This document shows, piece after piece, positions 8,047 through 64,000 of a DNA stretch of 64,000 nt. The notes below the pieces were generated by a model that saw only the letters and a list, made by a program, of their open reading frames with translations, did not search any database and was not told the origin of the DNA. Origin of the DNA: Methanosarcina barkeri MS (lineage in GTDB: Archaea; Halobacteriota; Methanosarcinia; Methanosarcinales; Methanosarcinaceae); contig NZ_CP009528.1 in NCBI RefSeq assembly GCF_000970025.1, positions 917,168 to 981,167 on the forward strand. Direction: 5' to 3'. Numbering within the stretch: position 1 is the first letter of the stretch; each line of letters begins with the position of its first letter. The translations under genes and the position numbers were made by a program.

Positions 8047-8991
8047 TTAGATTATCCCATTCTTTTCCAGAAACCCTTCAAGAGGCACAGAGTGAGTCTG
8101 AAAGCCGCACACCTTGTAAGGGTCAGCACCCATTGAAAGGGCTACGAACTGGGCAATGTTCATGTGCACCATGTCATATTTTACGCCAAACTCTTTTTCG
8201 ATAACAGGCTGGTAGCGGTCGTACTGGATCTGGCAATTCGGGCACATATGAAGCATAAGCTCCACACCTGCTCTTTGAAGGCTGTCGAGTTTTGCCTTTG
8301 TCACCTGAAGCGAGGTGTTTTTGTTAAGGTGAAGCTGGGAAAAGCCCATCCCGCAGGTAAGAGTCCGGTCTTCGTACCAGCGTACAGGCTCGGCTCCGCA
8401 GGCTGCGGCTATGTTATCTATCAACTGGGGGTTTTCAGGGTTTCCGAGGACATCGAGATACTGAACTTTATAGTAATGGCAAGCATGATGGGCTGCAGTT
8501 TTGATTCCTGATAAATCGAATTTTTTCTGCTCCTGGATTTTATCGACCTTGCTTAAAAGAATCTCTACTGCATGGTAGATGTTTGTCCTCGGGTTCATGT
8601 CGTCTTTTTCGTAAACAAGGTTTTCAAGGCCCTTTTCCCGGAAGATAGAGTTCACTTTTTCCCGGACCTCGGTGTTGGTATTCAGGGTTTCACAGGCTTC
8701 CTTATTTACGGCATAACAGGTTGAACAGAGGCAGGTTATATTGGGATACCCACATCTTCTTGCAACTGCAAAGTTTCGGGCTGCAATGGCTGCTGTTGTC
8801 AGTCCTTCAAATATATCAGTATAATGGCCTATTCCTGTGCAGCAGGACTGCTCATTGTTTATACAGTAGTCTATTCCAAGCCTGTCAAAGACATAACAAG
8901 TGGAGGTTTCCACCCCTGGGTACTCCTGCTCGACCATGCAGCTCTTAAATAATAAAAGCTGGCTGTCCGGGATATCTTCTATCGTTTTCAA
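8047..8991 (-). CDS. hdrB: CoB-CoM heterodisulfide reductase subunit B (HdrB2-like)
   Basis: Catalytic subunit that binds non-cubane [4Fe-4S] clusters and cleaves the CoM-S-S-CoB disulfide. Two CCG-type cysteine regions are visible: SCMVEQEYPG, SCCTGIG and CLCSTC in the first; HACHYYK, TCGMGF and MCPNC in the second. The frame is open to 9135, but a TTG at 8991 has GGAG 9 nt upstream and gives 314 residues, close to family length; a start at 9135 would overlap hdrC by about 190 nt. Even so it overlaps the end of hdrC by 47 nt, so the two are probably translationally coupled. Last gene of hdrA2-hdrC2-hdrB2. Confidence 0.87.
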   Translation of the reverse strand: MKTIEDIPDSQLLLFKSCMVEQEYPGVETSTCYVFDRLGIDYCINNEQSCCTGIGHYTDIFEGLTTAAIAARNFAVARRCGYPNITCLCSTCYAVNKEACETLNTNTEVREKVNSIFREKGLENLVYEKDDMNPRTNIYHAVEILLSKVDKIQEQKKFDLSGIKTAAHHACHYYKVQYLDVLGNPENPQLIDNIAAACGAEPVRWYEDRTLTCGMGFSQLHLNKNTSLQVTKAKLDSLQRAGVELMLHMCPNCQIQYDRYQPVIEKEFGVKYDMVHMNIAQFVALSMGADPYKVCGFQTHSVPLEGFLEKNGII

Positions 8992-58971: not shown

Positions 58972-59586
58972 TTAACTATCTGTTCTAAGAACACCCCATT
59001 CCATTAATCTTTTTTTGATCTGGTGCATCTCTATATCCGTAAAGCTGAGTCCTTGATAATGATAAAGAGATGTCTGAGGATCGTGTCCCTGTCTTTGGTA
59101 AACTTTAAAAGGCGGTACTCCTGAACTTAGCATCCAAGATTCAATACTTTTTCTTGTAGTTTTTGCTGAGATTCCAAATGGATTAAAATCAGTTTTAACA
59201 GCCCATCTTTTAAGGTCTTGGTTCCAGGTGTCAATATCTGGAGGAGCGTGCCAGTTAAAAAATTGATCAAGAATATAGGGAAAAGTTGAGGGTAACAAAT
59301 CAATGGTTCTCTCCTTCGCTTTTCGTTTCACTTTCTTCTGTGCATCTTCATTAAGACGAATTTGGTTCCTGCTCTCAGAGTACCATTCAGGATGATCGTA
59401 TAGCCTTTGAATTTCAGCATACCTCATGCCAGTGATTGTTGATAGCTCAAAAAGAGTTTTATGTCTCTTTTTTGGAATTCCTGCCTTAAACTTATCATAT
59501 TCTACAGGAACAAAGATACGGATTCCATTTACATAAATGGCTTCTTTGTCCCTTGTAAATCCTGAAACCGGATACTTTTCTTTCAT
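58972..59586 (-). CDS. Tyrosine recombinase/integrase-like protein (catalytic domain only)
   Basis: A 204-residue protein resembling archaeal site-specific recombinases. The first catalytic Arg is in LSTITGMRYAEIQRLYDHPEW (about 50-70), followed by a basic beta-hairpin (KRKAKERTIDLL). Box II reads ISAKTTRKSIESWML (Arg kept, with Lys in place of the usual His of HxxR), then RQGHDPQTSLYHYQGLSFTD with a Tyr in the expected nucleophile position. The separate N-terminal DNA-binding domain is missing or very short. No integrated element boundaries were found. It lies about 180 bases from the old end of the CRISPR array. Confidence 0.75.
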   Translation of the reverse strand: MKEKYPVSGFTRDKEAIYVNGIRIFVPVEYDKFKAGIPKKRHKTLFELSTITGMRYAEIQRLYDHPEWYSESRNQIRLNEDAQKKVKRKAKERTIDLLPSTFPYILDQFFNWHAPPDIDTWNQDLKRWAVKTDFNPFGISAKTTRKSIESWMLSSGVPPFKVYQRQGHDPQTSLYHYQGLSFTDIEMHQIKKRLMEWGVLRTDS

Positions 59587-59769: not shown

Positions 59770-61324
59770 TGAGATCACAGTAAATGTGTGGGGAACTCTC
59801 CCTTAATCCGCGCGACTCATCTTACATTAACGGTTCATCCCCACGCCTGTGGGGAACTCAGAATCGGTTCTCATTTCGATAGGTATGCATCCGGTTCATC
59901 CCCACGCCTGTGGGGAACTCTTCTCATATCCTTTCCATTTCCCACAAAATTCCGGTTCATCCCCACGCCTGTGGGGAACTCCAGCTATAGGAAATCAAAT
60001 GCCAGAGGGAAAACGGTTCATCCCCACGCCTGTGGGGAACTCGTATCGCGGATAATACGAATAATCACAGAATCCGGTTCATCCCCACGCCTGTGGGGAA
60101 CTCTGTTTGAGACTAGGATTCATAGAGACGTTAAGCGGTTCATCCCCACGCCTGTGGGGAACTCATCCTAGTCTCAAACACTACTTCTCCATATCTCGGT
60201 TCATCCCCACGCCTGTGGGGAACTCGTTTCAGTGTTCTTTGTGGATTCTCCTTCCCAACGGTTCATCCCCACGCCTGTGGGGAACTCTTATGCATATGTC
60301 GACGGGTTGACAAGCGGGGCGGTTCATCCCCACGCCTGTGGGGAACTCTCTATGGCACGTTTGGTACTGGTAAAACGATGCGGTTCATCCCCACGCCTGT
60401 GGGGAACTCGAGGAGGGTGCATAATGACATTTTCATTGTGGCGGTTCATCCCCACGCCTGTGGGGAACTCGTCATTACAGATTTTGATTACTTCTAATGC
60501 AACGGTTCATCCCCACGCCTGTGGGGAACTCATCAAGACCAATCACGTAATTTGTCCGTGACTCGGTTCATCCCCACGCCTGTGGGGAACTCTTTCTAGT
60601 TCCCGTTATGATATTGCGGTACAACGGTTCATCCCCACGCCTGTGGGGAACTCCAGCGGCATGCCAGTGCAGAGGAGATGGGGAACGGTTCATCCCCACG
60701 CCTGTGGGGAACTCCTCACAATAACATTTTCCATCCTGTTCAATCTCGGTTCATCCCCACGCCTGTGGGGAACTCCAGAGCAGTTTCTTCACCTACACTC
60801 CCGTCAGCGGTTCATCCCCACGCCTGTGGGGAACTCATATGAATTAACCGCACCAACTGACTGTAAAACGGTTCATCCCCACGCCTGTGGGGAACTCGCG
60901 GATGCCTGCCATGACCCTTCGTTTGCCGCCGGTTCATCCCCACGCCTGTGGGGAACTCACCTAGTGATAAAAAACGGAGATTGTTATGAACGGTTCATCC
61001 CCACGCCTGTGGGGAACTCCCAAGTTCTTTATTGTCTTTGTCTGATAGAACCGGTTCATCCCCACGCCTGTGGGGAACTCGACATCTTTAAATAGTTTGC
61101 ACTCTATTATTACGGTTCATCCCCACGCCTGTGGGGAACTCAACATCAATCAGGGAATATACACAAGAGGCATCGGTTCATCCCCACGCCTGTGGGGAAC
61201 TCTTATGTACACTAGTGAGGCCGTTGTTAGGGACCGGTTCATCCCCACGCCTGTGGGGAACTCAATTCTAGACATGTCCAGAAGGTCCCTTGAACCGGTT
61301 CATCCCCACGCCTGTGGGGAACTC
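59770..61324 (-). CRISPR. Type I-E CRISPR array: 25 intact repeats plus one degenerate, 25 spacers
   Basis: The 29-bp repeat (plus-strand form begins CGGTTCATCCCCACGCC and ends GTGGGGAACTC) is palindromic around CCCCAC/GTGGGG. Intact copies start at 59831 and recur every 61-62 bases up to 61296-61324. Spacers are 32-33 nt. A degenerate repeat at 59770-59798 keeps only its last 12-13 bases and marks the old end. Repeat polarity (GAGTTCCCC...ATGAACCG on the minus strand, as in E. coli I-E) and the adjacent cas genes put the leader at the right, so spacers near 61.3 kb are newest. No array variants with mutated internal repeats were seen. Confidence 0.97.
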
Positions 61325-61441
61325 TGTTTGTCTTTTATACTATTTGTCGGAAAAACTTTTCCGCTACTATATACAACGTTTTTTATAATGTATTTTATAT
61401 AAAAAATAAAATATTTCAAAAACATAATATCTCCGGTTAAT
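61325..61441 (-). promoter_or_regulatory. CRISPR leader
   Basis: A 117-bp AT-rich interval between cas2 and the newest repeat. It contains the 16-bp inverted repeat CGGAAAA-AC-TTTTCCG (61348-61363) 24 bases from the first repeat and TATA-like runs (TATATAAAAAATAAAATA). It should hold the promoter for the array transcript and the site recognised by the Cas1-Cas2 integrase. Confidence 0.7.
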
Positions 61442-62639
<1,198 letters not shown>

Positions 62640-62667: not shown

Positions 62668-63386
62668 TCATCTTGCAGGGCGGATAAGCATTAGTCCACA
62701 TCCAAAACTTTTTGCTGGGCCAATCCCCTTGTAGAGTGCGTTTATTAGAGATTCAGGGTTTGTTACAGTTAATATCCCAGAAAAATCAATGGTACTTATA
62801 TTTACACTGTGTTTCCCTTTTACCCCACGATTTTTATCTTTGGGCTTAAAGAACCTATTACATCGATAACCTGTAGCTATTACCTGCCCTTCCTCTACTT
62901 CAAAACCATTGTTATCTCCTTTTTTTCTGAGCCATTCAAATCCCTCTTTCTGGACTATTTCGGGAACTTGAGGTCTCTTGTTTTTTGAAATAACTTCTTT
63001 TTCCATTCTGGTCTTTGCGTCCATCACAACATCATGTCGATGCTGATGAGGTTTCCCATTTTCATCCTCGTCCCATCTTGTTACAATAGGATTAGCTCTC
63101 AATGAAAAAACAAGCTTCTGACCTGTGGAAAGCAGAGGTTTGTATTCCTTTGATTCTATTTGCCATAAATCTACATTTGCTTCAGGTTCTTGCTCCGACA
63201 AAATATAAAATAAAGGAAAACCGTTTTTTTCATCCTGCCTGTACAAAAAATCCCTTTGTTTATCAGGGTTACTTGCAAATAGAGACCATATAATACGGTG
63301 AAATTATCTCCAAAATTCCAGGAGAGCTTCCAGAACTCTTTATTTGTCACAATATCAGGTTTTAAGTTTGCTTTACTTAGATACAT
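62668..63386 (-). pseudogene. cas6e: Cas6e endoribonuclease gene with a frameshift
   Basis: Cas6e cuts the pre-crRNA within each repeat and stays on the crRNA in Cascade. Translation starts MYLSKANLKPDIVTNKEFWKLSWNFGDNF from the ATG at 63386; a one-base deletion at a T run (63300-63305) then breaks the frame. The correct continuation (HRIIWSLFASNPDKQRDFLYRQDEKNGFPLFYILSEQEP...) lies in another frame and runs to GIGPAKSFGCGLMLIRPAR, the family C-terminus with its glycine-rich RNA-binding loop. All other parts appear intact, so this is either a recent inactivation, a programmed event or a sequencing error. Confidence 0.85.
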
Positions 63387-63387
63387 C

Positions 63388-64000
63388 TTATTCCCCCAAT
63401 TCCAGCATCGTATAGTGTTCTTTTCTATCAGCAAACTGCCACCTTTTTCGGCTCAGAGTAAGATCTCTGCGAGTAACCGTATGAACTGGTACAAGTCCGT
63501 CCTCTTCACCTTCCCAGTAAAGCCTTACTTGCCCTGATTTATTCAGTAATTTGAGAAATGCTTCACACTTAAACTCAGCTTTTTCGAGAGCTTCTTTTAG
63601 ACTTTCTCCACTAACTATTTGAGCTTCTACAGGCAGAGCTGGAGGACAGGACTTTCTTCCCAGATATAAGACAAACTCAGGCTCTTTTAATTTGTTTTCA
63701 ATCAGTTCCAAAGAATAGGGGCAACCTTCAGGACATTTTTCTTTTGCCCAGATAGCAATCGTATACAAAGAGTCGCTATAATAGTCTCTTGTAGAAAGAA
63801 CTGCTGTTAATTTCTCTTTCTCAACTGCAAGCTCATCTTTTCGGGAAAGAATATGTTTCTGCTTTTTTATCGAACTTGTCGAGGGGATCTGTGCTGTGTG
63901 ATAATCCCTTAAAAAAGTTCCCGGATAATTCACAAGCACGGCAAAGTTATAAGCTTCTGCAAGTTTCTTGTGTTTACCGTCTTCACTCCTTCTGATACCA
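63388..64000 (-). CDS. cas5e: Cascade subunit Cas5e (partial, C-terminal 203 residues)
   Basis: Cas5e caps the 5' handle of the crRNA in type I-E Cascade. The gene enters from the right edge. The visible protein begins GIRRSEDGKHKKLAEAYNFAVLVNYPGTFLRDYHTAQ, a typical Cas5e core (GxxR, LAxLxFAVRxDxPGxxLRDYHTA). It continues through KAEFLVYLGRKSCPPALPV-like sequence (FVLYLGRKSCPPALPV, near 150) to the end DRKEHYTMLELGE. It stops one base before the cas6e start codon, so both are in one operon. cas3, cse1, cse2 and cas7 are presumably beyond 64000. Confidence 0.92.
   Translation of the reverse strand, partial: GIRRSEDGKHKKLAEAYNFAVLVNYPGTFLRDYHTAQIPSTSSIKKQKHILSRKDELAVEKEKLTAVLSTRDYYSDSLYTIAIWAKEKCPEGCPYSLELIENKLKEPEFVLYLGRKSCPPALPVEAQIVSGESLKEALEKAEFKCEAFLKLLNKSGQVRLYWEGEEDGLVPVHTVTRRDLTLSRKRWQFADRKEHYTMLELGE

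Follow-up and report, generated by a model that had tools for sequence, protein, structure and literature searches.

The cas6e gene of an otherwise complete type I-E CRISPR-Cas locus in Methanosarcina barkeri MS is interrupted by a 7-nt deletion, and the newest spacer of the adjacent array is identical to a site on the chromosome of the same cell. This self-targeting spacer, which had escaped the initial annotation of the locus, is the probable reason why the loss of cas6e is tolerated. We propose, with a probability slightly above one half, that the loss of crRNA processing was selected by the self-targeting spacer, as an escape from autoimmunity. This would account for the puzzling lesion: the one processing gene is lost, and the newest spacer is a perfect self-match. 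The window, i.e. the whole 64,000-nt stretch of DNA that was analysed, is part of a single-contig 4.53-Mb chromosome, and coordinates are those of the window unless stated otherwise. The features of the locus are as follows.

63388 to 64000, minus strand: cas5e (TIGR01868, 166 bits), which runs on past the window and is 247 aa in full
63171 to 63386, minus strand: 5' fragment of cas6e, in the original ATG frame, 71 codons, ending at a TAG
63297 to 63311, minus strand: junction of the 7-nt deletion in cas6e, GGAGATAAT/TTCACC (the slash marks the junction), just 5' of the catalytic-His codon, from an alignment with five intact relatives
62668 to 63303, minus strand: 3' part of cas6e, in a different frame from the ATG, with TIGR01907 and PF08798 matches
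61728 to 62639, minus strand: cas1e, intact (TIGR03638, 374 bits)
61442 to 61819, minus strand: cas2e, intact (TIGR01873, 95.7 bits), an ORF that overlaps the 3' end of cas1
61325 to 61441, minus strand: leader between cas2 and the first repeat, from the sequence and the array orientation
61264 to 61295, minus strand: spacer 1 (leader-proximal, newest), 32/32 match to the cell's own chromosome at ~C2:546095-546129, with AAG on the PAM side
59831 to 61324, minus strand: I-E array, 25 identical 29-nt repeats (GAGTTCCCCACAGGCGTGGGGATGAACCG), followed by a truncated repeat at the trailer end

ORFs and NCBIfam matches reveal a complete I-E set in the order cas3-cas8e-cse2-cas7-cas5-cas6e-cas1-cas2, in which cas6e is broken. 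The cas8e, cse2, cas7, cas5, cas1 and cas2 genes exceed the cut-offs of their I-E families, cas3 was assigned from its core and HD domains, above the cut-offs of both models, and the genes that lie beyond the window (cas3, cas8e, cse2 and cas7) are all open frames. Compared with the nearest relative, G012, dN/dS was 0.04–0.18 for the cas genes except cse2, where synonymous changes are too few for the ratio to be judged. The initial annotation had described a loss of Cas6e in an otherwise intact locus, with cas1, cas2 and cas5e undamaged, and this description holds: these three genes are open and match their families, and no damage is apparent in the remaining cas genes or in any of the 25 repeats. 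The array lies beside cas2, its 29-nt repeat has a predicted hairpin of -12.8 kcal/mol and its spacers are 32 nt long.

The cas6e ATG lies at 63386 (minus strand) and its frame stops at a TAG (63171) after 71 codons. The encoded fragment reads MYLSK...FGDNF, and its first ~28 residues (MYLSKANLKPD..FGDN) match those of relatives. The remainder, FHRIIWSLF...IRPAR (to 62668), is directly preceded by a TAA. It comprises 211 aa, nearly all of which are covered by the TIGR01907 (140 bits) and PF08798 (159 bits) matches, and it still encodes the catalytic His and the C-terminal G-rich loop (GIGPAKSFGCGL). The start and the remainder of the gene had been assigned to different frames, which is borne out, and the join maps to 63297–63311. 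Pyrrolysine read-through of the TAG as a rescue was ruled out by the TAA directly before the downstream frame.

The cas6e DNA was aligned with that of five intact Methanosarcina relatives; all five encode the gene in one frame. Seven nucleotides present in each of them are missing here: G012 reads GGAGATAGTTACCGGGTTCATCGT, and the window genome reads GGAGATAAT and then, after a gap of seven, TTCACCGT, with a breakpoint that is ambiguous by 1 nt. The initial annotation had joined the frames at a T run near 63303. The site is right, but the run is only three T long and the loss of a single T is ruled out by the seven missing bases; one more T, which was to provide an unbroken frame, would open it yet leave the gene with two codons fewer than in the four closest relatives. 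Among the 31 genomes of the genus that were searched, six have a Cas6e match and the window genome is alone in having an internal stop. The closest relatives by cas6e are Methanosarcina, and a search of plasmids returned no match to the cas6e region. It is very unlikely that cas6e is really intact and that the break is a sequencing or assembly error, as such an error would have had to drop seven bases from a non-homopolymer stretch of a chromosome assembled in a single contig, and an intact cas6e would leave the self-targeting spacer to be explained in some other way.

The junction is followed by a Phe and then by a His (residue 2 of the remainder), which aligns with H20 of E. coli CasE. Because this His is encoded after the junction in the other frame, the ATG-started product loses it, together with all that follows. 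Further along the downstream frame, the first common start codon is a TTG, 18 codons beyond the His; a product restarted there has neither the N-terminus nor the His. No single open frame combines the N-terminal strand with the catalytic His, as a functional Cas6e would, and cas6e is very probably non-functional, whatever the order of events. We infer that the I-E array transcript is left unprocessed. The earlier claim that no Cascade forms without Cas6e is too absolute, as the E. coli I-E system can dispense with Cas6e if unit-length crRNA comes from another source, though at reduced strength in a plasmid assay (PMC4499155). For this reason complete inactivity of the system is presumed rather than certain; unit-length crRNA made in another way could still arm Cascade.

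A bypass that keeps the I-E system working, through -1 ribosomal frameshifting or through an I-B Cas6b, appears highly improbable. The two cas6e frames would be joined by a -1 shift at AATTTC, and frameshifting had been suggested initially; however, the junction has no canonical X XXY YYZ slippery heptamer, the joined product would be two residues short, and the gene is in one frame in 5/5 relatives. The proposal that another cas6 might exist elsewhere was correct in that two Cas6b genes are present in the genome, both found by Cas6b models only, the generic Cas6 models PF10040 and TIGR01877 giving no match in this genome. However, the Cas6b examined belongs to a type I-B locus (with cas1, cas3, cas5, a TM1802-type large subunit and a long array) whose 37-nt repeat is almost unstructured (-2.6 to -3.1 kcal/mol) and unrelated to the 29-nt I-E hairpin; judging from the repeats, cross-processing by Cas6b seems unlikely. 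A working system would also be expected to attack the chromosome via spacer 1. There is a similarly slim chance that a low-level, Cas6e-independent I-E activity is tolerated, in which Cas6b, other RNases or the transcript ends would provide the guides and a host transporter gene would be targeted.

When the spacers of the I-E array were compared with the genome, one strong match was found outside the array, that of spacer 1 to a site in a cation-efflux (CDF) gene; about 1e-11 matches of this kind are expected by chance. This genome hence carries a spacer identical to host chromosomal sequence outside the array, together with an interference gene apparently inactivated by the cas6e frame break. 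The AAG that adjoins the self protospacer is the PAM favoured by the E. coli I-E system (PMC4499155) and a candidate PAM of this archaeal system, for which phage and viral collections and other Methanosarcina genomes provided no protospacer usable for PAM inference. G004 also has this protospacer, which is therefore ordinary chromosomal sequence, and the donor of spacer 1 could be the cell itself or the incoming DNA of a relative. None of the 207 I-E spacers examined in three control genomes with an intact cas6e (64 in G012, 55 in G009 and 88 in G011) has a perfect self-match outside the arrays; one imperfect match, with 4 mismatches and beside CAG, was found in G011. Nor was a perfect self-match found for the approximately 120 I-B spacers of the window genome, for which the hits outside arrays were repeat-like or non-spacer. 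A self-match is therefore not a general feature of these arrays. The targeted cation-efflux gene itself looks broken, by an in-frame TGA where G004 has GGA (L030 5511 = G000:C2:546510); the protospacer and the AAG are untouched by this change.

In the sequence of events that we favour, Cas1-Cas2 would have captured spacer 1 from the cell's own DNA or from that of a close relative, and a working Cascade with the spacer-1 guide would have sent Cas3 to cut the chromosome; a cell devoid of Cas6e, which no longer turns the array transcript into guides, would survive. Mutation of cas genes is one known way to survive self-targeting, and disabled cas genes alongside self-targeting spacers have been documented (PMC6990116). 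The lethality of self-targeting is here likely rather than assured, because Haloferax tolerates it by repair (PMC7521656).

The main rival is the reverse order, in which cas6e was lost first, by drift or for another cause, and the chromosomal spacer was taken up later by naive adaptation, being harmless without guides. We hold this order to be the less probable one. Naive adaptation takes host as well as foreign DNA (PMC4499155), spontaneous uptake of chromosomal spacers was seen on long culture in a Haloferax strain deleted for cas6b (PMC7521656), and the open I-B locus would have been left as a possible defence. Nevertheless, a long-dead system with active Cas1-Cas2 should gather more self-derived spacers than the single, newest one observed here. 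In addition, no more than roughly one naive (non-primed) acquisition in two has AAG as its PAM in E. coli (PMC4499155), so that the AAG next to the protospacer leans towards the spacer having come first. Finally, the cas6e remainder shows no non-synonymous excess (four nonsynonymous and six synonymous codons changed on this lineage; dN/dS of 0.13 compared with G012, on small counts), and any prior decay was therefore short. Escape from autoimmunity by the deletion is thus favoured because the self-spacer is single, in the newest position and matches a protospacer next to an AAG; the causal link is a correlation of one lesion with one spacer in one genome. The lesion looks recent, though the counts are small, because dN/dS is low across the locus, cse2 apart, and all 25 repeats are identical; together with the open cas genes, this agrees with a recent origin, one of the options named in the initial annotation.

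The locus resembles the E. coli Cascade type I-E system in gene order, family matches, 29-nt hairpin repeat and 32-nt spacers, and in the AAG next to the self protospacer; it differs in its archaeal host and in the interruption of cas6e by the 7-nt deletion. It shares a perfect chromosomal match, a disabled cas gene and a kept array with the known cases of self-targeting spacers accompanied by inactivated cas genes (described by Stern et al., 2010, and in subsequent studies; review in PMC6990116), whereas here the lesion affects only the crRNA-processing gene, and the adaptation and other effector genes are open. The Haloferax volcanii cas6b deletion strain (PMC7521656) is likewise an archaeon that lacks its Cas6 and holds chromosomal spacers, but it is a laboratory I-B mutant, compared with a natural I-E lesion with one self-spacer here. 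Whichever order is true, the case adds an example to a known class of events and involves no new mechanism. A literature search for Methanosarcina barkeri, CRISPR and self-targeting together found no paper. If the loss of cas6e was an escape from autoimmunity, the locus would represent a clean natural case in a methanogen, with crRNA processing lost and the adaptation and remaining effector genes open. Because Methanosarcina is genetically tractable, both the cost of self-targeting and the order of events are accessible to experiment.

Several minor observations were made on the CRISPR loci. Spacers 19 and 20 of the I-E array (60104–60196) have 16 nt in common, on opposite strands (TGTTTGAGACTAGGAT), and therefore come from the same spot of one element, for which viral contigs gave no match. 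A 204-aa ORF at the trailer end of the array (58972–59586) is, by eye, presumably a tyrosine recombinase. For cas8e (cse1), the apparent start codon is ATC instead of ATG, preceded by a GGAGG site (L002 ~8447-8577, just past the window). A lost cas8e start as a second strain-specific lesion was ruled out, as the same ATC is found in G012, and ATC or ATA at that place in G009, G026 and G011; a conserved non-standard start codon is possible. In G009 and G026 an in-frame ATG is also present a few codons upstream. Near-identical genes for a CARF-type/winged-helix regulator lie beside the I-E and I-B loci (L002 11509-12111 and L029 2557-3168). A second long array with the I-B repeat, in about 100 copies (L115, G000:C2:248101-255528), is located near the second Cas6b gene at C2:241881.
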